A stretch of 64,000 nt of DNA from Isoptericola dokdonensis DS-3. Lineage in GTDB: Bacteria; Actinomycetota; Actinomycetes; Actinomycetales; Cellulomonadaceae. A program made the translations under genes and the position numbers. The notes under the pieces were generated by a model. The model did no database searches. It had not been told where the DNA came from and saw nothing but the letters and a program-made list of their open reading frames with translations. Positions 7,596-46,249 of this stretch are shown here, one piece after another; position 1 is the stretch's first letter, and every line of letters starts with the position of its first letter. The stretch spans positions 868,001-932,000 of the forward strand of contig NZ_CP014209.1 in NCBI RefSeq assembly GCF_001636295.1. The letters run 5' to 3'.

Positions 7596-8179
7596 ACGAC
7601 CCGACCGCCGCGCTCCTGCCCACCCTGGGCGACCTCGACTGGGTGCCCGCGGTCGGGCGCCCCGACCTGCTGGCGGACCCGGTCGCGGCGGTGCTGACCG
7701 CGTGGGCCGGCGTCGACGACCGGGCCGCGACGAGCGTCGCGGTGGCCGAGATCGACCCCGACCACGCGGACACCGCCACCCTCAACACCGTGCACGGGCT
7801 GCCGCCCGAGGCGTCGGCCAACTGCGTCGTCGTCGCGGGGCGCCGTGGGGAGGTCGAACGCGTCGCCGCGTGCGTCGTCCCCGCGACCACGGCGGCGGAC
7901 GTCAACACGCGCGTGCGCAAGCTCCTCGACGTCCGCAAGGCGTCGTTCCTGCCGATGGAGCGCGCCACCCGCGAGACCGGGATGGAGTACGGCGGCATCA
8001 CCCCGCTCGGCCTGCCGGCGGGCTGGCGGGTGCTCGTGGACGAGCGGTTCCGCGCGCCGGGCTCCCTCGCGCTGATGGGTTCGGGCCTGCGCCGCTCGAA
8101 GGTGCTGATGCCGGGACCGCTGCTGTGCGAGCTGCCCGGGGTCGAGGTCGTCGCGGACCTCGGGGTCGTCAGGGGCTGA
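7592..8179 (+). CDS. YbaK/EbsC-type aminoacyl-tRNA deacylase
   Basis: This 195-residue protein contains a YbaK/ProRS editing domain: NCVVVAGRRG, the RKLLDVRKASFLPMERATRETGMEYGGITPLGLP block and a Gly-rich C-terminus with SGLRRSKVLMP. Family members hydrolyse mischarged tRNA such as Cys-tRNA-Pro or Ala-tRNA-Pro in the cytoplasm. It overlaps the PEBP gene by 4 bases. Its stop codon abuts the stop codon of the opposite-strand siderophore protein gene with no intervening base (TGATCA). Confidence 0.87.
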   Translation: MNDPTAALLPTLGDLDWVPAVGRPDLLADPVAAVLTAWAGVDDRAATSVAVAEIDPDHADTATLNTVHGLPPEASANCVVVAGRRGEVERVAACVVPATTAADVNTRVRKLLDVRKASFLPMERATRETGMEYGGITPLGLPAGWRVLVDERFRAPGSLALMGSGLRRSKVLMPGPLLCELPGVEVVADLGVVRG

Positions 8180-9181
8180 TCAGCACTCGGCGCGGCCGCG
8201 GCGCCAGTAGCCCATGAAGGCCACGGACTTGCGGTCGACGCCGCGGTGCGTCACCAGGTGGCGGCGCAGCGTCTTGATGACGCCCGCCTCCCCCGCGAAC
8301 CACGCGTACAGCGTCGTGTCCTGGACGAGCGGGCGGCCGTCGGCGTCCACCGGGACCTCCCACAGGACGTCGGTGTCGATGTCGACGTCGGCGAGCTCGC
8401 CGTCCAGGTCGACGCCGGCGGCCGTGATCGCGGGGGCCGGCACGCCGGGCACCTCGTCGACGGACGCGCGGACGCCGAGGGCCAGCATGCGGTCGGCGGC
8501 ACCCTGGACGGCGGGCACGAGCAGGTCGCCGTGCTCGCGGTCCTCGCGGGCGAGCCAGGTGACACGGACGCCCGCGGGTGCGACGAGGGTCCAGCGGTCC
8601 TCGGCGTGCGGGACCTCGAGGAAGACCTCGCCCACGGCGTCGTCGGGCAGCGACTCGCAGATGGAGGCGATGGCCGGCACCGCCGTCTCGTCACCGGCGA
8701 GGAGCAACGCGTGGCTGGTGGCCGGCGGGTTGAACTCGAGCCCGCCGTGCGGGCCGTCGTGCGCGGCGTCGGGCCCGATGATCACGAGCGGCGAGCCGGG
8801 GCGGGCACCGTTGGCCCAGCGTGACGCGGGGCCGGTGTCGCCGTGCAGCACGATGTCGACGTCGACCTCGCGCAGGTCCGGCCGCACCGCGCGCACCGTG
8901 TAGGTGCGCAGCGGGTTGCGACGCTCCTCGGGCAGCTCGCGCCACGTCGTGAACCAGTCGGGGTTCTGGCGGTCGAGGTACTCCCAGCCGCCGCAGGGGG
9001 CGGGCAGGAGGAACTTGATGCGCTGGTCGCGGCCGTTGTCGGCGAACCGGTCGAGGTCCTGGCCGGTGAACGTGATCCGGACGAAGGACGGGCAGAGCCG
9101 GGTGACCCGCGAGACCTCGACGTCGAACATCTTGTAGGGCGTCGTCACGCTCGTGGTCTCAGCGGTGGCCGTCTGCGTCAT
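8180..9181 (-). CDS. Siderophore-interacting protein (ferric-siderophore reductase, SIP family)
   Basis: This 333-residue flavoprotein has an FAD-binding domain with [10 protein letters not shown], an NAD(P)-binding part with [13 protein letters not shown] and the family-typical C-terminal GYWRRG. SIP proteins reduce ferric siderophores in the cytoplasm to release iron. The ATG at 9181 has no ribosome-binding site but sits 7 bases after a TAGGCT -10 hexamer, so the mRNA is probably leaderless. A DtxR/IdeR-like box covers that promoter, implying iron repression. It is a single-gene unit; no siderophore transporter is adjacent. Confidence 0.92.
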
Positions 9182-37297: not shown

Positions 37298-37720
37298 GTG
37301 ATCGACCTGCTCTCCGCCCTGTCCTACGGCGCCGCGTACTGCGTCGTCGGCACCCTCGTGCTCATCGCGTCCTGGAAGGTGCTGGACGTCCTCACCCCCG
37401 GCAAGCTGGGCGAGCACCTGCACACCTCGCACTCCGCGGCCCTCGTGTCGGCGACGTGGATGGTGGCGCAGGGCCTCATCATCTTCACCGCGATCTGGAC
37501 GAACGCCGAGTCCGCGTTCGGGGTGGCGCTGGCCTGGACGCTGGCGTTCAGCCTCGTCGGCGTGCTGCTCCAGGCCCTCGCGTGGCGGCTCGTCGACGCC
37601 GTCACGCCGGGGACGCTCGGCGAGGAGGTCACCGTGCCCGGCCCGGTCGTGCCGCTGGCCGGCGTCAGCGCCGGCGTCATCGTCGCGGTCGCCCTCGTCG
37701 TGGTCGCCTCGATCGCCTGA
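37298..37720 (+). CDS. DUF350 family membrane protein
   Basis: This 140-residue protein has about four hydrophobic segments (residues 6-27, 45-68, 72-96 and 113-138), with duplicated internal sequence: VVGTLVLIASWKVLDVLTPGKLGEHL and LLQALAWRLVDAVTPGTLGEEV resemble each other. DUF350 proteins (E. coli YjfL type) are of unknown function and repeatedly neighbour glutathionylspermidine-synthase-like genes. It starts with GTG after a GAAAGG site and its stop overlaps the ligase ATG by one base. Confidence 0.88.
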   Translation: MIDLLSALSYGAAYCVVGTLVLIASWKVLDVLTPGKLGEHLHTSHSAALVSATWMVAQGLIIFTAIWTNAESAFGVALAWTLAFSLVGVLLQALAWRLVDAVTPGTLGEEVTVPGPVVPLAGVSAGVIVAVALVVVASIA

Positions 37721-38952
37721 TGCGTCGCCACGAGATCACCCCGCGCCTGGGCTGGCGGGAGAAGGTCGAGTCGCAGGGCCTCGTCTTCCCCGTCACCCCG
37801 GTCGACGGGCCGGACGGCACCGCGACGGACGTGCCGTACTGGAACGAGTCCGCCTGGTACGACTTCTCGATGGCCGAGGTGGAGCGTCTGGAGTCCGCCA
37901 CCGACGAGCTGTACGGGATGTGCCTGGAGGCGGCGCGGGAGATGACGCGCCGCTACACCGACGCCGACCTGGGCCTGCCGTCCGGCGCGCTGGCGCTCGC
38001 GAAGGCGTCGCTCGACCGGGGCGACCCGTCGGTGTACGCCCGGTTCGACCTCGTCTACGACGGCGTCGGCGCGGCGAAGATGCTGGAGATCAACGGCGAC
38101 ACACCGACCGGGCTGGTCGAGACCGCGGTGGCGCAGTGGGGCTGGCTGGAGGACGTCTTCCCGTACCGGGACCAGTGGAACTCGCTGCACGACCGGCTCG
38201 TGCGCTGGTGGACGGACTCCGAGGAGTCCGGCCGGTACCCCGACGGCGTGCACTTCCTGCACTCGGACGTCGACGAGTCCGGCGAGGAGGAGATGACGAC
38301 CACCTACCTGCGGGACACCGCCGCGCTCGCCGGGGTGCGCACGTACGGCCACCCGATCCAGGGGCTCGGCTGGGACGACGCCGCGGACGCCCGGCAGTTC
38401 GTCGACGACTTCGGCCTGCCGGTCCGTGCGGCGTTCAAGCTCTACCCGTGGGAGGACATGCTCCACGAGCCGTTCGGCGCGCACGTGCTCGCCGGCCGGG
38501 AGGCCCGCCCCGTGCAGTGGCTGGAGCCCGCGTGGAAGCTCCTGCTGTCCACCAAGGCGATCCTGCCCGTGCTGTGGGACCTGTTCCCCGGGCACCCGAA
38601 CCTGCTGCCTGCCTACCTGGGCGAGCCGCGGGGCCTGACCCAGTGGGTCGCCAAGCCGCTGTGGGGCCGCGAGGGCGACAACGTGCACGTGCACGCCGAC
38701 GACGTGCGCCAGGTCAACGACGGCGCGTACGGCGACCAGCCGCTGGTCTACCAGCAGTACGTCCCTCTGCCCGACTTCGACGGCAACCGCGTCGTGCTCG
38801 GGTCGTGGGTGATCGGCGGCGTCGCGGCCGGATGTCTGGTGCGCGAGTCCGACGGGCCCGTCACCGACTACTTCTCCCGCGTCGTCCCGCACGTCATCGG
38901 CGACGCCCGCATGCCCGACGACGCGCAGGTCCAGGCCTGGCTCGACGAGTGA
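37720..38952 (+). CDS. Glutathionylspermidine-synthase-like ATP-grasp ligase
   Basis: This 410-residue protein has the synthetase-domain hallmarks ARFDLVYD and KMLEINGDTPTGLVE, which match the ligand-binding RFD and E-x-N-x-DTPT signature of GspS. A later KPLWGREGDNVHV and SWVIGG mark the ATP-grasp end. In E. coli the GspS domain joins glutathione to spermidine. Proteins such as YgiC and YjfC lack the amidase and their products are unknown, as here. It lacks the N-terminal amidase of Gsp. Actinobacteria use mycothiol, not glutathione, so the amine and acid substrates are open. Confidence 0.88.
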   Translation: MRRHEITPRLGWREKVESQGLVFPVTPVDGPDGTATDVPYWNESAWYDFSMAEVERLESATDELYGMCLEAAREMTRRYTDADLGLPSGALALAKASLDRGDPSVYARFDLVYDGVGAAKMLEINGDTPTGLVETAVAQWGWLEDVFPYRDQWNSLHDRLVRWWTDSEESGRYPDGVHFLHSDVDESGEEEMTTTYLRDTAALAGVRTYGHPIQGLGWDDAADARQFVDDFGLPVRAAFKLYPWEDMLHEPFGAHVLAGREARPVQWLEPAWKLLLSTKAILPVLWDLFPGHPNLLPAYLGEPRGLTQWVAKPLWGREGDNVHVHADDVRQVNDGAYGDQPLVYQQYVPLPDFDGNRVVLGSWVIGGVAAGCLVRESDGPVTDYFSRVVPHVIGDARMPDDAQVQAWLDE

Positions 38953-38956
38953 CGGG

Positions 38957-40672
38957 TCACACCGGCTCGGCCGCCGGAGCGGTGCCGGCCGGCAGGGTCA
39001 CGGTGAACGTCGTGCCCGCCCCTTCGACGCTGCTGATCGCCAGCTCCCCGTCGTGCGCGTCGACGATGGCCTGGGTGATGGACAGCCCGAGCCCGACGCC
39101 GGGGACCCGGCGCCTGGTCGCCGTCGTCGCGCGGAAGAAGCGGTCGGTGAGCCGGTGCACCTCGTCCGCGGGGATGCCGACGCCGTCGTCCTGCACGGTC
39201 AGCACCGCCTGCGGCGCGCCGTCGGGCGCCTGGCTTCGTACCGCGCGGACCTCCACGCGCCCGCCCGCCGGGGTGAACTTCAGGGCGTTGGACAGCAGGT
39301 TGTCGACCATCTGCCCCAGTCGCACCGGATCGGCCGACAACGCCACCGGGCCCGGCGTGGAGTCGACCAGCGCCAGGTCCTGCGAGATCGCGAACGGGAC
39401 GGCGGAGCGCACGGCGGCCGCCAGGACGTCGGCGAGGTCGGTGGGCTCCTGGCGCACCACGAAGCCACCCGCGTCGACCTGGGCACGCAGCAGGAGGTCC
39501 TCGACGAGGTGCAGCAGCCGCTGCGCGTTGCGTTCGATCACCTCGAGGTAGCCGCGCTGCTCGGCGGAGAGGTCGTCGTCGTCGAGCCGGAGCAGCTCCA
39601 GGTAGCCGAGGACCGACGAGATCGGGGTGCGCAGCTCGTGGCTGACGTAACCGAGGAACTCGTCCTTGGCCCGTTCCGACTCGCGCTCGGCGGTGACGTC
39701 GGTCGCCACGAACAGATAGCCCTGCTCCTCGTCGCCCGGCAGGGGCGTGCGCCGCGTGACCGTCAGCCGCACCACCCGCGTGCGCTCCCGGCCGACGAGC
39801 GTCCAGTCGTGCTGGAACGCCAGGCCGTGCGCCGCGCTGCCCACCAGGACCGACCACCGCTGCGGGTCGCCCTCGGGGCCGGGCGGGATCCGGTGGCCCT
39901 GCTCGAGCGCCACCGCGTCGAGCTCGGCGGAGACACCGAGCTCGAGGAGCGGGCGCCCGATCATGTCCTGTGCCGCCCGGCCGCTGAGGTGTTCGGCCCC
40001 CTTGTTGAAGACCTCGACCGTGCCGGTCACGTCGGTGCCCACGATGGCCTGCTCGGTGGCGGCCTCCACGAGCCCGGCCATGAGGTCGCGGGACGTCCGC
40101 AGCTGGTCGGCCAGCGCGCTCTGCGCCGCAGCACGGGCGCGCAGACCCTGTGCGGCGTCGGACACGAAGACGGCGAGGACGAACGCGACGAGCGGCACGA
40201 GGATGCCCCGGTACACCGTGACCCCCGTGCTCGCGAAGTCCTCGATCCACACCGCGGGCACCAGGACGCTGATCGTCGCCAGCGCCGTCCCGAGCAGGAC
40301 CCCGCGCCGTCCGCTCGTCCAGGCGAGGGTGGTCACGGGCAGCAGGACGAGGATGGAGAAGTAGAGCAGCTCGCCCGACGTCCCCCGCTGCAGGAGCAGC
40401 AGCGCCCCGACGGACGTGACCGGCAGCAGGTCCTGCGCGGCGGGCGCCCAGCGCCCCCAGGGCAGGAACGCCGCCGCCATCAGCACCGCCACCTCCACGA
40501 GGACCGCGGCCACGACGAGCACCGGTTCGTCGAGGTGGGCGATCACCACCGGGAGCACCGCCACCGAGATCCCGAAGATCGCCGCGAACGCGACCTGCCG
40601 CTGCAGCACGCTGTTGAGCGGGAGGTGCGCGACCTGGAGGCGCGGGATCCAGGGGGCGTCGCCGGTGTTCAC
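38957..40672 (-). CDS. Membrane-bound PAS sensor histidine kinase
   Basis: This 571-residue kinase has about five to six hydrophobic segments in residues 25-175, a PAS domain (about 195-330), a HisKA domain with the phospho-His345 in FLGYVSHELRTPISS, and a HATPase domain (DNLLSNALKFTPAGG, DDGVGIPADE, VGLGLSITQAIVDAHDG). It lacks a large extracellular loop, so it may sense within the membrane. It is the last gene of a six-gene operon whose first gene encodes the receiver-PIG-L fusion, its probable partner. GTG start at 40672 overlaps the small protein gene by 4 bases. Confidence 0.88.
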   Translation of the reverse strand: MNTGDAPWIPRLQVAHLPLNSVLQRQVAFAAIFGISVAVLPVVIAHLDEPVLVVAAVLVEVAVLMAAAFLPWGRWAPAAQDLLPVTSVGALLLLQRGTSGELLYFSILVLLPVTTLAWTSGRRGVLLGTALATISVLVPAVWIEDFASTGVTVYRGILVPLVAFVLAVFVSDAAQGLRARAAAQSALADQLRTSRDLMAGLVEAATEQAIVGTDVTGTVEVFNKGAEHLSGRAAQDMIGRPLLELGVSAELDAVALEQGHRIPPGPEGDPQRWSVLVGSAAHGLAFQHDWTLVGRERTRVVRLTVTRRTPLPGDEEQGYLFVATDVTAERESERAKDEFLGYVSHELRTPISSVLGYLELLRLDDDDLSAEQRGYLEVIERNAQRLLHLVEDLLLRAQVDAGGFVVRQEPTDLADVLAAAVRSAVPFAISQDLALVDSTPGPVALSADPVRLGQMVDNLLSNALKFTPAGGRVEVRAVRSQAPDGAPQAVLTVQDDGVGIPADEVHRLTDRFFRATTATRRRVPGVGLGLSITQAIVDAHDGELAISSVEGAGTTFTVTLPAGTAPAAEPV

Positions 40673-40866
40673 GTCGCCGTGGGCCCGCCGTGCAGCACGA
40701 GGACCACGGCGGCTCCGGCCATCGCGAGAGGGGCGGCCAGGAGGAGCCACCGCTCACGGCGCCGGTTCGTCTCCGTCTCGTCGCGCAGCGCGTCGTCGTC
40801 GAGCGTGGCCCACCAGTCCGACCGGTCGTCGGGAGGCTCGTCCGTCGCGGCGTGGCGTGGCGTCAT
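40669..40866 (-). CDS. Small membrane protein of the GT2/HK operon
   Basis: This 65-residue protein is acidic at the N-terminus (MTPRHAATDEPPDDRSDWW, charged to about residue 40), has one hydrophobic segment (about residues 43-60) and a short Gly/Pro tail. The ATG at 40866 overlaps the GT2 stop by 4 bases and its stop overlaps the histidine kinase start by 4 bases, which supports it as a real coupled gene. Function unknown; a membrane partner of the synthase or kinase is possible. Confidence 0.6.
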   Translation of the reverse strand: MTPRHAATDEPPDDRSDWWATLDDDALRDETETNRRRERWLLLAAPLAMAGAAVVLVLHGGPTAT

Positions 40867-42335
40867 CCCATCACCCTTCCCGTCTTCTCGGTCTTGTCCC
40901 AGGTCGCCGCCGCGCCCTGCGCCTCCTTGAGGTAGGAGTCGAGCGTGACGGCGCACAGCAGGGGTCCGAACCCGACGACGTACAGCAGCAGGCTCGTCAC
41001 CCACCGCCACCGCACGACGCCGTCCAGGAGCTTGAGCAGCCAGGCGAGCATCATCGCCACCAGGGGCCAGGCGTACAGCACGTACAGCAGCACCGTGCGG
41101 GTCTCCTGGGTCACGTCGATCCCGACGAGCTCGAGCCAGGTGTTCGGACGCCAGGCCGCCACCATGACCACGATCGCGCCGAGGCCCGGGAAGGCGAGGC
41201 CCTCGAACCACGCGCGCCGGGCGGTGCGGTGGTCCAGCATGAGGGTGAGCAGGGTGACGTAGACGTAGGCCACGACGGCGAGCCACCAGAGCCAGGTGAA
41301 GAGCTCCAGGGCGGCGACGTCGTTCACCGCATGGAGCACGACCAGACCCACCGAGGCGAGCACGGCCGCGACCGGCAGGCCGAACACCGAGAACCAGACG
41401 ACCCCGAACGAGACCGACCCCAGCCGGTGGTCGCGCGAGGGCCGGAACCAGACCTTGCGGAACCGGGACGTGATCTGCACGTTCCCGCGGGCCCACCGCA
41501 GCCGCTGCTTCCACAGGGCCCGGATCGACGCCGGTTCCTCGGCGAGCACGTGGACCGTGGGGTCGAACACGACGCGACGCCCGCCGAGCTGGGTGAGGAA
41601 CGTCGTGCAGGTGTCCTCCGCGAGCGTGGTGGTGTCGATCTCCCCGCCGATCGCCTCCAGGTTGACCCGCGAGTGGAGCTGGGCGCCGCCCGCCAGGCAG
41701 GCCATCGCCCCGAGCACGTTCTGCGCGCGGCGCGCGGCCGCCTGCGCGGCGACGTACTCGAACCCGACGAACCGGGCCACCGCGGCGGGACGCCGGCTGC
41801 CCTCGGCGATGTAGCCCGTCACGGCACCGATCTCGGGGTCGGCCAGGTGCCGGGTCATCCGGCGCAGGGACTCCGGCGCGAAGATGACGTCGGCGTCCAT
41901 GACGAGCAGCGCCTCCATCCAGTCGTCCGCGAGCGCCTGGCGGATGCCGTGGTTGAGGGTGTGCGCCTTGCCCTGCCCGCCCTGCTCGCGGCGCAGGTGC
42001 CGGATGCGTCCCGGGTAGCGGGCGGCCATCGCCCGGGCGACGTCGGGGGTGTCGTCGGTGCTGGCGTCGTCGACGACGAGCACGCGCAACCGGTCCGGGG
42101 GGTACTCGAGGTGCATGAGCCGCTCGAGGGACGGCTCCAGCACGGCGCCCTCGTTCCAGGCCGGCAGCACCACGACGACGCGCGGCAGGTAGGGCGCCGA
42201 CCGCGGCCAGTGGTTCGTCACGGCATGGACCGGCACGAGCAGGTACTGGTAGACGCCGACGACGACCGGCACGGCCCCCAGGGCGACCGCCGCGACGCAG
42301 AGGACCTCCAGGACCTGGAGCAGGACGTCCGTCAC
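40863..42335 (-). CDS. Processive family-2 glycosyltransferase (membrane polysaccharide synthase)
   Basis: This 490-residue protein has an N-terminal membrane segment (about residues 4-32), a cytoplasmic GT2 domain, and about five C-terminal helices. It carries the processive-synthase set: VVDDASTDD (88-95), DAD (147-149), AED (239-241) and QRLRW (277-281). Cellulose, hyaluronan and PNAG synthases share this QxxRW pattern, so it probably polymerises a sugar and passes it through the membrane. The donor sugar is unknown. It overlaps the PHP and small protein genes by 4 bases each. Confidence 0.88.
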   Translation of the reverse strand: MTDVLLQVLEVLCVAAVALGAVPVVVGVYQYLLVPVHAVTNHWPRSAPYLPRVVVVLPAWNEGAVLEPSLERLMHLEYPPDRLRVLVVDDASTDDTPDVARAMAARYPGRIRHLRREQGGQGKAHTLNHGIRQALADDWMEALLVMDADVIFAPESLRRMTRHLADPEIGAVTGYIAEGSRRPAAVARFVGFEYVAAQAAARRAQNVLGAMACLAGGAQLHSRVNLEAIGGEIDTTTLAEDTCTTFLTQLGGRRVVFDPTVHVLAEEPASIRALWKQRLRWARGNVQITSRFRKVWFRPSRDHRLGSVSFGVVWFSVFGLPVAAVLASVGLVVLHAVNDVAALELFTWLWWLAVVAYVYVTLLTLMLDHRTARRAWFEGLAFPGLGAIVVMVAAWRPNTWLELVGIDVTQETRTVLLYVLYAWPLVAMMLAWLLKLLDGVVRWRWVTSLLLYVVGFGPLLCAVTLDSYLKEAQGAAATWDKTEKTGRVMG

Positions 42336-43072
42336 GGCTCCCCCGCGAGCCACCGGTAGGCACCGACGTCCCCGGCGTGGTGGGCGTCGGTCGACGCGAC
42401 GAGCGGGACGCCCGCGGCGCGCAGCTCGGCGACGACCCGGTCGCCGGGGCACCGCCACTTCTCGTTGATCTCGACGACGCCGTCGGCCGCGAGCAGCGCG
42501 GCGACGAGGGCCGTGAGGTGGTCGTCGTCGACGTGGGACTCGTCCAGCCCGACCTTGGGCAGGACGGAGAACGGGTGCGCGAGCTGCGCCGGCCCGGAGG
42601 CGGCGAGGGCGTTCACGTAGGCGGTCACGAGATGCCCGACGACGTCGGCCGGGTCCAGGCCGGCCGCGAGGCGCTCCCGCGTGGCAGAGGGTGACCAGGG
42701 TCCGTCGGGTGCGGGGAGCTGGTGGTCCGCGAGGAGCACCCGGCCGGGACCTGCGCGGGTGCCGACGGCGGCCAGGACGTCGGCGGGCGCGTCCACGGTT
42801 CCGGCGGTGTCGAGGATCTTCGCCTCGATGCCGGTGCGGACCGTCAGCCCGTCGGGGACGTCGAGCGCGGCGACGGCGGCGAGGAAGTCCGGCACGTGGG
42901 TCGCGGCGACCCGGACGTGCTCCACCATGCGGATCCGGGTCAGGCCTCGTCGGGTCGCGGCGGCGAGGTTCTCCGCCGGGGTGCTGTGCGCGTCGTCCGA
43001 GAAGGTGGAGTGCACGTGGTGGTCGCCCCGCAGGTCGACGCCACCGCGGGCGGCGGTGCCGGCGTCCGTCAC
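42332..43072 (-). CDS. PHP-domain phosphoesterase
   Basis: This 246-residue protein has the PHP metal-binding motif DHHVHSTFSDDAHSTPAENL at its N-terminus, then MVEHVRV and late STDAHH with DAH as metal ligands. PHP proteins include histidinol-phosphate phosphatases and polymerase-associated nucleases. As a stand-alone enzyme in this operon it probably removes a phosphate from a sugar or glycan intermediate, an inference only. The GTG start overlaps the ATP-grasp stop, and its stop overlaps the GT2 start (GTGA). Confidence 0.8.
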   Translation of the reverse strand: MTDAGTAARGGVDLRGDHHVHSTFSDDAHSTPAENLAAATRRGLTRIRMVEHVRVAATHVPDFLAAVAALDVPDGLTVRTGIEAKILDTAGTVDAPADVLAAVGTRAGPGRVLLADHQLPAPDGPWSPSATRERLAAGLDPADVVGHLVTAYVNALAASGPAQLAHPFSVLPKVGLDESHVDDDHLTALVAALLAADGVVEINEKWRCPGDRVVAELRAAGVPLVASTDAHHAGDVGAYRWLAGEP

Positions 43073-44064
43073 CGCTCCCCCGGGCCGGCCGCTGCCTCGA
43101 GGGCGGGCAGGACCTCGTCGAGCGGGAGGAACCTGTCCTCCAGGAACCGGACGTTCGCGACCTCGCGGAAGTCGAGGCGGGCAGGGACCGGCCGCCCGAG
43201 CACGGCGTCGAGCGTGATCGACGGCATGTCGACCCCGGACGCGACGGTCAGGGGCATGGCGCCCGGGAACCGCGGGTTCACCTCCAGCAGGGCGGGCACG
43301 CCGTCGGCGTCGCGCTTGAGCTGGACGTTGGCGACGGTCGTCAGGCCGATGACGCGGGCGACCTCCGCGGCGGTCGCGATCAGCTCCTCGTCGTGCACCG
43401 TCACGCCGGCCACGGACACGCCGGAGTCGACGCGCAGGCGGGCCCGCGGCACGGCCGCCACGACGTGGCCGTCCAGGTCCGCCAGCACGTCCACGGAGTA
43501 CTCGTCGCCGGGCAGCAGCTCCTGGACGAGCAGGTCCTCGGCGGCGCTGGTCGCGACCAGCTCGGCATGGTCGGTGACGAGCCGTACCCCCCGCGAACCG
43601 GCGCCGCGGCGCGGCTTGACGATCACCGGGAAGGTCCACCCCTCGTCGGCGCCCTGCGTGCCGAGCAGCTCCGTGCGGGGCACGCGCAGGTGCGGTGCGC
43701 ACGCCCGGGCCAGCGCGAGCTTGTCGAGCGCCGTCTCGAGGGTCTCCAGGGACGGCGAGGCCAGGACGGTGCCGACGTCCGCCAGCCGGTCGCGCGCCGC
43801 CGCCAGCCGCGGCAGCTCGACGTCGACGGTGGCGAACAGCACCTCGACACGGTCCCGGTCGCACAGCGCCACGACCTCGTCGACGAACCCGTCCGCCAGT
43901 CCGGGCGGGACGAGCCGGCGCCGGTCCGCCTCGACGAGGTAGATCCCGCTGGCCCACCGGTCCATGTCGGCGGCGTGCACCGCGACGTCGCCCCGGGCCA
44001 GCAGCGAACGGATCACGGCCACCCCGGCGGGTCCTCCCGCACCGGTCACCAGCACTCGCGTCAT
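43069..44064 (-). CDS. ATP-grasp carboxylate-amine ligase
   Basis: This 331-residue protein has a Rossmann start MTRVLVTGAGGPAGVAVIRSLLARG, an ATP-grasp domain with FPVIVKPRRGAGSRGV and the Mg-binding LLEVNPRFPG. It resembles CPSase-like and PylC-type ATP-grasp ligases that join a carboxylate to an amine with ATP. In this operon the amine could be the deacetylated sugar made by the PIG-L domain, which is inference. The ATG at 44064 lies 14 bases after the RR-PIG-L gene stop; the next start overlaps by 4 bases. Confidence 0.82.
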   Translation of the reverse strand: MTRVLVTGAGGPAGVAVIRSLLARGDVAVHAADMDRWASGIYLVEADRRRLVPPGLADGFVDEVVALCDRDRVEVLFATVDVELPRLAAARDRLADVGTVLASPSLETLETALDKLALARACAPHLRVPRTELLGTQGADEGWTFPVIVKPRRGAGSRGVRLVTDHAELVATSAAEDLLVQELLPGDEYSVDVLADLDGHVVAAVPRARLRVDSGVSVAGVTVHDEELIATAAEVARVIGLTTVANVQLKRDADGVPALLEVNPRFPGAMPLTVASGVDMPSITLDAVLGRPVPARLDFREVANVRFLEDRFLPLDEVLPALEAAAGPGER

Positions 44065-44078
44065 CGTGCGTCCTTCCG

Positions 44079-45137
44079 TCAGTGGAGCGGGCTCTGGCCG
44101 TGCACGCCCGCATGGTCGCCGACCAGCAGCCCGAGGCGCCCGACGGCACGCAGCGCCTCCATCGGCTCGGCGTAGGTGCCGACGCCGAACCTCGACCAGT
44201 AGCGGGCGGTCGCCCGCACCGACTCGGGCTGCATGTAGTCGCGGTGCGCCTGCGACGCGAAGGCGGCGAGCATCCGCAGCTTCGTCTCGATGTGCTCGTC
44301 GACGGGCGAGAAGCGGGCGGGCTTGAAGTCGATCGTGGCCGAGGGGCTCTGGTAGCACAGCACCGTGGGGACGCGCCGTGCCGCGACCTCGACGCCCTGG
44401 TGGACGGCCCGGTGGTCCTGGTGGCGGTCGTTGGCGGTGTGGGTGTACACGATGGTCGGGTCGACGTCGGCGACGACCTCCTCGATCGCCCGGATGACCG
44501 CCGCGAGCGGCTCCATCCGGGTGTCCTCGAAGTCGAGCAGCACCAGGTCGGCACCGATGACGGCGGCGGCCGCCCGCGACTCGTGCTCCCGCGCCGACGG
44601 CTGCCCGCCGACCGCGCCGCGGGACAGGGTGAGCACGGTGACGTCGTCGCCGATCGCGCGGTGCGCGGCCAGCGTGGCCCCGGCGCCGATCTCCACGTCG
44701 TCGGGGTGAGCGCCGACCGCGAGCACGCGTTCGCGGGGCGTCGGGGTGCCGGCCTGGCGGGCTCTCTCGACGAGCGTCCGCGCCCGGTCCACCAGCCTGG
44801 CGGAGTCGAGCGGCTTCACGAGGAACTCGTCGGCGTCGTCGCGCAGGGCCTCGACCGCGTAGTCGACGCTCGCGTACGCCGTCATGACGATGACCGGCAG
44901 GCGTGACCCCTCGGCACGGATCGCCCGGACGACCTCGAGACCCGACATGCCCGGCAGCTCGATGTCGGTCACCAGCAGGTCGAAACGCTCGGCCCGCAGC
45001 CGCGCCAGCGCCGACACGCCGTCCTCGACCACCGCCGTCTCCATGCCGCCCGTCCGCCGCAGCACCGTGGCCACGTAGATCGCGGCGTCCGGGTCGTCCT
45101 CGACGACGAGCACCCGGACCGGTCGTGCATCCTCCAC
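44079..45137 (-). CDS. Response-regulator receiver domain fused to a PIG-L/LmbE deacetylase
   Basis: This 352-residue protein joins a receiver domain (residues 7-125: acidic EDD at 13-15, phospho-Asp58, Thr86, Lys108) to a PIG-L-type metal deacetylase domain (about 135-340, with AHPDD at 143-147 and a further His/Asp cluster NDRHQDH). PIG-L enzymes remove acetyl groups from N-acetyl sugars. The receiver has replaced the usual DNA-binding output, so deacetylation may be switched by the kinase of the same operon. The start at 45137 has GGGGGAGG spaced 6 bases before GTG. Confidence 0.85.
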   Translation of the reverse strand: MEDARPVRVLVVEDDPDAAIYVATVLRRTGGMETAVVEDGVSALARLRAERFDLLVTDIELPGMSGLEVVRAIRAEGSRLPVIVMTAYASVDYAVEALRDDADEFLVKPLDSARLVDRARTLVERARQAGTPTPRERVLAVGAHPDDVEIGAGATLAAHRAIGDDVTVLTLSRGAVGGQPSAREHESRAAAAVIGADLVLLDFEDTRMEPLAAVIRAIEEVVADVDPTIVYTHTANDRHQDHRAVHQGVEVAARRVPTVLCYQSPSATIDFKPARFSPVDEHIETKLRMLAAFASQAHRDYMQPESVRATARYWSRFGVGTYAEPMEALRAVGRLGLLVGDHAGVHGQSPLH

Positions 45138-45247: not shown

Positions 45248-46249
45248 TCAGCCGCGGCGAACCCTCCGGGCTGTGGCCACCGTGGCGGCGACGCGGGGCA
45301 CCGTCCAGGCGGCGGCCAGCGCGAGGGCGACCCCGAGGAGCGTCTCGCCGACCCGTTCGGCGAACCAGTGCCCGGCGTGGGTCTCGTCGCCGACCAGCAG
45401 CAGGGACAGCACGAGCAAGGTCGAGAAGAAGGGCATGACGTACCAGCGGCTGCCCGCGGTCGCGGCGGCCCCGGCGAGGGCGACCACCACGAGCAGCGCC
45501 CGGACGCCGTCGCTCGGTCCCGCGAGCGCGATCACGCAGGCCAGCAGCGACCCGGCCAGGACGCTCAGCGACCGCCCGACCTCCCGCACGTGCGCGTCCC
45601 GCAGGCGTGGACGGCTCACGAGCAGCGCCGTCGTGCAGGCCCAGCCCGGGTGGTCGAGGCCGAGGGCCAGGCCGATCGCGGCCGCCACCGCGCCCGCGAC
45701 GCCGATCTGCACCCCGTAGACCAGCATCGCGCGCCGCGCCGGCACGGGCCGGGCCGGCGGCTGCGGCACGTCCCGCTCCGGCCAGGCGAGGGACACGAGC
45801 CAGGCGTACACCGAGCCCGCGAGCATCAGCAGAGCCATGCCTGCCGCCGACCCCACCGAGTCGAACGACAGCCCCGCCCCCACCAGCGGCAGCCCCAGCG
45901 CCATCGCCAGCGGGGCGAGGCGTCGGCCCGGCACGGCGACGGCGGCCGCGACGGCGACGCACAGCGCGAACACCGTCAGCACGGCGACGACCGGGTAGGG
46001 CGCGACGACGGAGCCGATCACCATCGAGACGCCGGCCAGCGCACCCACCCCGACCACACCGGCCCGACGCCGCCGGCTCGCCGGCAGGCCGACCGCAGCC
46101 GCCGGCAGCACGCCGACCGCCAGCGCGAGCCCCCGCGCCGGGTCGTCGAAGGCCACGACGGTCGCCGGCGCCGCGTACGCGACACCCAGCCCGAGGCGCG
46201 ACCACGACCAGCTCAGCGGCCCTCGTTCCGGGCTGTCCGACGACGGCAT
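45248..46249 (-). CDS. FUSC-type aromatic-acid-exporter-like membrane protein
   Basis: This 333-residue protein has about ten hydrophobic segments arranged as two halves of five to six around a short hydrophilic central loop (PERDVPQPPARPVPARR). This is like FUSC (fusaric acid resistance) proteins, but shorter, lacking their long cytoplasmic domain. It is upstream of the RR-PIG-L operon on the same strand with a 110-base gap, so co-transcription is possible but not shown. The ATG at 46249 lies 6 bases after TAGCGT and appears leaderless. The substrate is unknown. Confidence 0.75.
   Translation of the reverse strand: MPSSDSPERGPLSWSWSRLGLGVAYAAPATVVAFDDPARGLALAVGVLPAAAVGLPASRRRRAGVVGVGALAGVSMVIGSVVAPYPVVAVLTVFALCVAVAAAVAVPGRRLAPLAMALGLPLVGAGLSFDSVGSAAGMALLMLAGSVYAWLVSLAWPERDVPQPPARPVPARRAMLVYGVQIGVAGAVAAAIGLALGLDHPGWACTTALLVSRPRLRDAHVREVGRSLSVLAGSLLACVIALAGPSDGVRALLVVVALAGAAATAGSRWYVMPFFSTLLVLSLLLVGDETHAGHWFAERVGETLLGVALALAAAWTVPRVAATVATARRVRRG

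Follow-up and report, generated by a model that had tools for sequence, protein, structure and literature searches.

A receiver-fused N-deacetylase heads a six-gene operon

The window analysed here is a 64,000-nucleotide stretch of Isoptericola dokdonensis DS-3 DNA (contig NZ_CP014209.1, positions 868,001 to 932,000) from a genome of 3.83 Mb held in a single contig. Six open reading frames (ORFs) on its minus strand, running from 45137 to 38957, form a compact operon (Table 1). In order of transcription they encode a response-regulator receiver fused to a PIG-L (LmbE-like) N-deacetylase (RR-PIG-L), an ATP-grasp ligase, a PHP-domain protein, a family 2 glycosyltransferase (GT2), a small protein with one transmembrane segment (one-TM) and, last, a histidine kinase. 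A gap of 14 bases separates the first two genes, and each of the four junctions that follow the ATP-grasp gene is a 4-base overlap. A preliminary description of this DNA had proposed such a set of tightly spaced same-strand genes, and the ORF coordinates bear out both the set and the spacing; the order in which it listed the genes is the reverse of transcription.

Table 1. Genes and domains of the operon, in order of transcription (positions are those of the window)
Feature	Position	Strand	Basis and details
RR-PIG-L: receiver + PIG-L (LmbE-like) N-deacetylase, 352 amino acids	44079..45137	-	best start GTG at 45137, behind GGGGGAGG
Receiver domain, residues 9-119	44781..45113	-	Pfam Response_reg; E13/D14, phospho-acceptor D58, T86, K108
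PIG-L catalytic region, residues 139-252	44382..44723	-	GAHPDDVE and HTANDRHQDHR motifs; Pfam PIG-L
ATP-grasp ligase, 331 amino acids, PRK12767 / ATPgrasp_Ter / PylC-like	43069..44064	-	Pfam, NCBIfam
PHP-domain phosphoesterase-like protein, 246 amino acids	42332..43072	-	NCBIfam below cut-off; conserved residues
GT2 synthase, 490 amino acids, six hydrophobic segments	40863..42335	-	Pfam Glyco_tranf_2_3; DxD, ED, QxxRW
Small one-TM protein, 65 amino acids, behind GT2	40669..40866	-	hydrophobic segment 40-58
Histidine kinase, 571 amino acids: five hydrophobic segments, PAS, HisKA, HATPase_c	38957..40672	-	Pfam

Both halves of RR-PIG-L lie in one chain, which matches Pfam Response_reg at 102.8 bits and PIG-L at 87.8 bits. 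Outside the receiver, residue conservation was counted among proteins exceeding a set minimum length (300, 290, 215, 450 and 500 amino acids in the five families), with the window protein added. Across 85 RR-PIG-L sequences, position 13 is E or D in 81, D14 is kept in 79, the phospho-acceptor D58 in 84, T86 in 82 (with S in 3) and K108 in 84, and the acidic pair, aspartate, threonine/serine and lysine of a response regulator are thus all present. The metal site of the LmbE-like N-deacetylases is equally intact, with AHPDD and HxxDH-type motifs on a PIG-L fold (H144, P145 and D147 in 84 of 85 sequences; D146, H233 and H242 in all 85). The proposed fusion of a receiver to a deacetylase is therefore borne out, in one chain and with its receiver residues intact. 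No receiver-PIG-L chain was among the matches listed in structure searches, which excludes nothing.

Among characterised enzymes, BshB comes nearest to the PIG-L part, which also resembles diacetylchitobiose deacetylase, MshB and glycopeptide deacetylases; BshB and diacetylchitobiose deacetylase are enzymes of N-acetylglucosamine (GlcNAc)-type substrates. RR-PIG-L scores 79.1 bits against the NCBIfam BshB1 model (TIGR04001) and does not reach its cut-off of 182.5. Since the protein has no signal peptide and is fused to a receiver, it should stay in the cytosol; it would thus have no route to an extruded chain, which makes a precursor the more probable substrate. The suggestion that PIG-L exposes an amine on an N-acetyl sugar fits the N-deacetylase activity predicted here, with a precursor more likely to be its target than the finished surface glycan.

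The gene set is conserved as a unit

Relatives of RR-PIG-L were sampled as the best 80 of 536 confirmed matches (the named loci; individual loci carry L numbers), so that counts favour near relatives, and the top named relatives are from Cellulomonas species (59-65%). An ATP-grasp gene comes next in 59 of the 80 named loci. In 45 of them the three genes that follow are ATP-grasp, PHP and GT2, in 5 the following two are ATP-grasp and GT2, with no PHP, and in 50 GT2 is among the first three genes after RR-PIG-L. Eight of the 80 loci end less than 4.5 kb downstream of RR-PIG-L, and genes were called with a simple codon-bias caller that can split or miss genes (the PHP gene of L120 was recovered by tblastn). 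A search seeded independently with GT2 (E 1e-50, three candidates scored per genome) gave matches in 20 of the 396 genomes from the order and in 3 of the 396 from the phylum, both counts taking in the genome of the window. PIG-L, ATP-grasp and PHP genes stand beside GT2 in 21 of the 22 GT2-seeded loci outside that genome (L103, L109-L129). The set is thus patchy in occurrence and tightly linked where present. Carriers of the operon include named strains of Cellulomonas and Microbacterium as well as gammaproteobacteria, and the arrangement is not due to chance, because the gene order is found again in further genera and phyla. The survey of the gene set across genomes that the preliminary description had put forward as a check accordingly yields one conserved unit (59/80; 21/22).

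Several variant loci were seen. Three Leifsonia loci (L052, L060, L061) keep RR-PIG-L, ATP-grasp, PHP, an ORF of 51-52 amino acids, a stand-alone receiver and the kinase. A second cassette, in L041, L042, L051 and L096, has RR-PIG-L and a kinase converging on an ATP-grasp gene, a shorter GT2 gene and a 380-residue protein (cluster c42); the strains of L041 and L051 also carry the main operon (as L028 and L024). The c42 protein, with its hydrophobic start, was considered as a PgaB-like hydrolase and rejected (no PgaB match, hhalign probability 0.3%); it gave only DUF7616 in Pfam (E 0.31, one of four members) and only 6s9p among solved chains (E 0.94). A 692-residue ORF beside PIG-L and GT2 (L105:8304-10382) has its best match in the ATP-grasp family and is a possible ligase fusion.

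At the window locus itself, about 110 bases upstream of RR-PIG-L and on its strand, is a gene for a FUSC_2 membrane protein (45248-46249) to which tblastn gave no match in any of the 80 named loci. On the plus strand, the ORF 37659-38952 converges with the kinase gene, and its product resembles glutathionylspermidine-synthase-type ATP-grasp proteins; in L106 a relative is found close to the operon, on its other side.

A synthase-type GT2 with a probable small membrane partner

The GT2 protein has the layout of a synthase, with multiple membrane spans, and its residues D147, D149, E240, D241, Q277, R280 and W281, which make up the DxD, ED and QxxRW motifs, are conserved in 55 of 55 sequences. 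In Pfam it matches Glyco_tranf_2_3 (104.6 bits) and Glyco_transf_21 (54.1 bits). Among NCBIfam models PgaC_IcaA (TIGR03937) leads at 127.7 bits against a cut-off of 422.3, which is not reached, followed by the mycofactocin glycosyltransferase (78.3), NodC (74.3) and HpnB (71.5), with HpnI at 34.9, all of them likewise below their cut-offs. Its alignment with E. coli PgaC spans 271 columns at 28% identity and runs through the KQRLRWA motif, and its best solved chain is 6yv7, a family 2 enzyme. These results agree with its earlier description as a QxxRW synthase; they most naturally suggest, and do not prove, an N-acetylhexosamine (HexNAc) donor and processive synthesis.

A one-TM ORF of 38-95 amino acids lies directly after 47 of 55 GT2 genes, GT2 genes below 430 amino acids or with less than 350 bases downstream having been dropped beforehand, and in 43 of the 47 the two overlap by 4 bases. 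Behind other genes the rate is 0-8% (RR-PIG-L 0/78, ATP-grasp 2/64, PHP 4/53, kinase 0/54, others 10/443). By eye, the actinobacterial and gammaproteobacterial proteins have an acidic stretch, an R/V-x-E-R/K-type motif and a transmembrane segment ending in V-R. The small one-TM protein is thus a good candidate for a synthase subunit.

Loci from Marinicella, Kangiella and a gammaproteobacterial metagenome-assembled genome (L069, L072, L087, L097) carry, in this order, genes for RR-PIG-L, ATP-grasp, GT2, the small protein and a tetratricopeptide repeat (TPR) protein. The cluster of this protein has seven members (L069, L070, L075, L082, L087, L091, L097), and the 414-residue protein of L072 aligns with them, giving eight diderm loci, of which seven have a GT2 match in the same locus (the exception is L075). 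The protein of L091, the sole member modelled, is predicted to consist of a TPR part of 11 helices and a 14-strand barrel (predicted local distance difference test score, pLDDT, 86.5). Foldseek with this model ranked the cellulose exporter BcsC first (9b8a, E 1.1e-11), PelBC eleventh and BcsC again twenty-sixth (6tzk); for the barrel by itself, OmpG and CymA are the nearest of the matches listed. The model suggests that the diderm relatives may export a polymer. The claim that GT2 polymerises and exports its product is therefore hinted at on the side of export, and the polymeric product is what we infer. Genes for a divergent hybrid kinase (cluster c21, 7 loci) and for a LuxR-type regulator (c38, 5 loci), both named from Pfam matches in L091, are also present in some diderm loci.

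The ATP-grasp ligase and the PHP protein

The ATP-grasp protein matches Pfam ATPgrasp_Ter (119 bits) and NCBIfam PRK12767.1-4 (155.4 bits, below the cut-off of 390), and its best solved chain is 2pn1. K150, E261, N263 and R265 are conserved in all 69 sequences.

Neither the PHP protein nor the 65-residue protein of the window has a Pfam match at E 0.01. The PHP protein is matched by NCBIfam PHP-domain and HisJ models below their cut-offs (PRK09248 at 43.2 bits against 264) and by YcdX (1m65) at E 0.021, and all five of its relatives that were scanned pass the cut-off of PF02811. H21, E83, H117, H166, D229 and H231 are conserved in 54 of 54 sequences and D17 and H19 in 51 of 54. No tblastn match to PHP was found in any of eight pseudomonadotal loci (two of which, L081 and L084, end early), and PHP is therefore not obligatory. 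As a step of the pathway, which is how it had been described, PHP thus belongs to the conserved set and can be dispensed with in some lineages. A gene for a low-molecular-weight tyrosine phosphatase (c37) lies near the locus in five of the eight (L069, L072, L084, L087, L097), identified by Pfam in L087 and by clustering in the other four. Capsule tyrosine phosphatases of other bacteria come from both families, the low-molecular-weight tyrosine phosphatases and the PHP enzymes, and a regulatory phosphatase role for PHP is, for this reason, a lead that may be worth following.

A kinase often accompanies the intact receiver

The histidine kinase matches HATPase_c (99 bits), HisKA (72.9 bits) and PAS_4 (26.1 bits) in Pfam, and its HELRTP motif (H345 to P350) is conserved in 56 of 56 sequences. 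It is encoded on the same strand no more than 7 kb downstream of RR-PIG-L in 47 of the 80 named loci, and directly behind it in five as a bare pair (L041, L042, L051, L058, L077); a kinase is also found behind RR-PIG-L in L007-L010. In the window operon the fused receiver is the sole receiver, as it is beside the kinase in several Cellulomonas loci.

All five receiver residues are present in 17 of 21 GT2-seeded PIG-L proteins. They are lost in L125, L126 and L127 (G, D, P/A, G/A and D at the five places), and the PIG-L protein of L103 has no receiver. A same-strand kinase match was found in 13 of the 17 loci with an intact receiver and in 0 of the 4 without, a co-occurrence that was noticed post hoc, with four loci in the second group, two of them (L125, L126) from one family; it is suggestive, not proof. 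Direct control of RR-PIG-L by phosphorylation is the simplest reading, because the receiver is fused, its residues are conserved and a kinase is adjacent, and from this we infer that kinase and receiver are partners. The earlier proposal that the kinase directly controls the deacetylase accordingly keeps its intact fused receiver, and the pairing on which it depends is weighed below against possibly branched signalling in other loci.

Related loci show variants of this arrangement. The homologues with a degenerate receiver (L125:5100-6248, L126:11654-12715 and L127, match 7715-8680) have no kinase match. L103:5230-9175 encodes the receiver-less PIG-L, ATP-grasp, PHP, GT2 and a 44-residue ORF in the same order, a cassette minus its switch, and has no kinase match. 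Blastococcus loci (L030, L031, L035, L038, L040) have a kinase of the same cluster and a stand-alone receiver about 3.5 kb upstream of RR-PIG-L, outside the operon. In L086 four genes of the kinase cluster, along with stand-alone receivers, come after a divergent RR-PIG-L gene.

A proposed pathway and its alternatives

We tentatively favour, at slightly less than an even chance, the view that the operon makes an amino-sugar polymer as a synthase-dependent exopolysaccharide system. A HexNAc-derived glycan would be polymerised and extruded by the membrane GT2, probably together with the one-TM protein. Receiver-fused PIG-L would remove N-acetyl groups in the cytosol, most likely from a precursor such as a nucleotide sugar or another GlcNAc conjugate, and the ATP-grasp ligase would couple the freed amine to an acid or an amino acid, either ahead of the sugar's use or in step with it. 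By phosphorylating D58, the membrane kinase may control the share of precursor that undergoes deacetylation and re-acylation. Chains made by a GT2 of this type are extruded as they grow; with a cytosolic deacetylase, deacetylation and capping would therefore come before export. Many biofilm glycans owe their charge to deacetylation, which in familiar systems takes place outside the cytoplasm; through a deacetylase that is itself a response regulator, an external signal could alter glycan chemistry directly and quickly, at the post-translational level.

Several observations weigh against this proposal. As to the synthase and export, every curated GT2 score is below its cut-off, and lipid-glycosylating GT21-type enzymes match as well (54 bits). 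The L091 model aligns with BcsC at template-modelling scores of only 0.37 and 0.31 and 14.6 Å, most of the rows listed for it are ordinary porins and TPR proteins, and it passes the cut-off of TPR_Slam (43.4 against 35.2 bits), which makes a Slam-type protein exporter possible for the L091 TPR protein. The barrel gene was moreover seen only in the diderm loci and not in the monoderm lineage of the window. As to the gene set, ATP-grasp is not the next gene in 21 of the 80 named loci, and tblastn found no match to it in the fetched stretch of 12 (L034, L058, L066, L068, L070, L073, L077, L085, L086, L088, L090, L092). Stand-alone receivers, with neither ATP-grasp nor GT2, follow RR-PIG-L in L034 (at a contig end), L068 and L086. 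The Leifsonia loci L052, L060 and L061 have no adjacent GT2 and keep an ORF of 51-52 amino acids at the place of the small one-TM protein all the same, which speaks against its role as a synthase subunit. GT2 stands alone in L121, as a second copy in a genome that has the full set at L116. As to the switch, intact receivers occur without a kinase match in L117 and L119, with a kinase core only in L128 and with a kinase on the other strand in L129.

The main rival is an aminoglycolipid pathway, in which GT2 would place GlcNAc on a membrane lipid, cytosolic PIG-L would deacetylate it and ATP-grasp would acylate or aminoacylate it, with the kinase tuning membrane charge. Eukaryotic PIG-L deacetylates GlcNAc-phosphatidylinositol, and a cytosolic deacetylase would suit a lipid-linked sugar at the inner leaflet. 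The matches of GT2 to Glyco_transf_21, HpnB and HpnI point the same way, but PgaC_IcaA scores higher than HpnB or HpnI (127.7 against 71.5 and 34.9 bits), and a glycolipid has no obvious need of the TPR-barrel gene found in diderms. There is precedent for the same logic in P. aeruginosa, where, in the accessible text of the report, GpgS and GpgD make GlcNAc-PG and then GlcN-PG (GlcN, glucosamine), yet these enzymes belong to other families (GT4 and COG3233) than those of the operon (PMC12713373). On balance we judge an aminoglycolipid product unlikely.

A second alternative concerns the switch alone, and we consider it somewhat less likely still: the kinase would act mainly on the stand-alone receivers that other genomes encode behind GT2, and the receiver of RR-PIG-L would be a phosphate sink or a localisation module, with control exerted elsewhere. 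Stand-alone receivers (clusters c5 and c7) are encoded on the same strand no more than 7 kb downstream of RR-PIG-L in 34 of the 80 named loci, and in the loci whose gene order was tabulated they lie next to the kinase; they could be its real partners, and they leave room for a relay, which weighs on the kinase-RR-PIG-L pairing as such. The window and several Cellulomonas loci, however, have the fused receiver only, bare pairs of RR-PIG-L and kinase exist, and the kinase is missing from all four GT2-seeded loci in which the fused receiver is absent or degenerate, compared with 13 of 17 where it is intact.

A small cytosolic GlcN conjugate, made by glycosyltransferase, PIG-L and ligase along a thiol- or aminoglycoside-like route with GT2 incidental, would fit the likeness of PIG-L to BshB, MshB and glycopeptide deacetylases and the ligation to a freed amine in mycothiol and bacillithiol synthesis, but is improbable given the missed BshB1 cut-off (79.1 against 182.5 bits), on which a thiol pathway was rejected, the regular adjacency of GT2 (21/22; 50/80) with its six hydrophobic segments, and the barrel gene of diderms.

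Returning to the exopolysaccharide system, it is possible, though we think it distinctly less than probable, that these loci in Actinomycetota, Pseudomonadota and other phyla define an undescribed exopolysaccharide class, marked by a two-component gate on a cytosolic N-deacetylase, re-acylation by an ATP-grasp ligase and a one-TM synthase subunit; phosphorylation would then set monomer chemistry, not gene expression. The locus is compact, and it offers a lead for the yai genes of E. coli.

Comparison with known systems

The operon resembles the pga/ica systems for poly-N-acetylglucosamine (PNAG) in its QxxRW GT2, the gene for a small membrane partner, the N-deacetylase and, in diderms, a TPR-barrel porin. 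It differs from them in a GT2 far below the PgaC_IcaA cut-off, in a deacetylase that is a receiver-fused PIG-L and not PgaB-type, and in the additional ATP-grasp and PHP genes. A PNAG operon proper was rejected, as the GT2 is below the cut-off and there is no PgaB/IcaB-type deacetylase among the six genes. PNAG is deacetylated after polymerisation, outside the cytoplasm, whereas the deacetylase of this operon should act before export.

The nearest named parallel that we found is yaiS-yaiP-yaiX-yaiO of E. coli K-12 (L099:6070-10617), genes which resemble the set of PIG-L, GT2 and outer-membrane barrel. YaiS is a PIG-L protein 38% identical over 175 amino acids. The best family of the GT2 YaiP is again PgaC_IcaA (100.5 bits), and it aligns with the operon GT2 over 116 amino acids at the start of the GT-A domain. 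YaiO is an outer-membrane barrel (TIGR04390) that does not align with the TPR-barrel protein (E 1.6). Where the operon has its ligase there is an acyltransferase gene, yaiX, broken by IS2 in K-12, and the annotated stretch has no receiver, kinase, ATP-grasp or PHP gene. To judge by their titles, the papers found to name at least two of the yai genes do not deal with a glycan.

Fusion of a receiver directly to a catalytic domain is known among response regulators, as in CheB and PleD, and what sets the operon apart is a sugar N-deacetylase as the output. The thiol-pathway deacetylases BshB and MshB have no receiver fusion, and the operon has no soluble glycosyltransferase among its six genes. 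In the accessible text of the report on gpgSDF, to which C. difficile hexSDF is called analogous, both systems pair a glycosyltransferase with a deacetylase acting on a HexNAc conjugate; unlike the operon, gpgSDF uses GT4 and COG3233 families and a flippase, with no receiver fusion or ligase (PMC12713373).

Among the matches listed in searches of the open-licence literature there was no sugar N-deacetylase as a response-regulator output, and no paper on PIG-L with ATP-grasp or on PIG-L with a receiver domain and deacetylase. The response-regulator gene in the accessible text of a C. difficile Pig-L paper is a neighbour there and does not make it this system, and the accessible part of the LmbE review (PMC4101496) contained nothing relevant to the system. 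LmbE is mentioned along with receiver domains and response regulators in two further papers (PMC9487997, PMC5660220). Within that literature, the earlier statement that no pathway with this gene set has been described therefore stands. The system, not found in the literature so searched, is best filed with the synthase-dependent exopolysaccharide operons, as a variant that has a receiver-fused cytosolic deacetylase.

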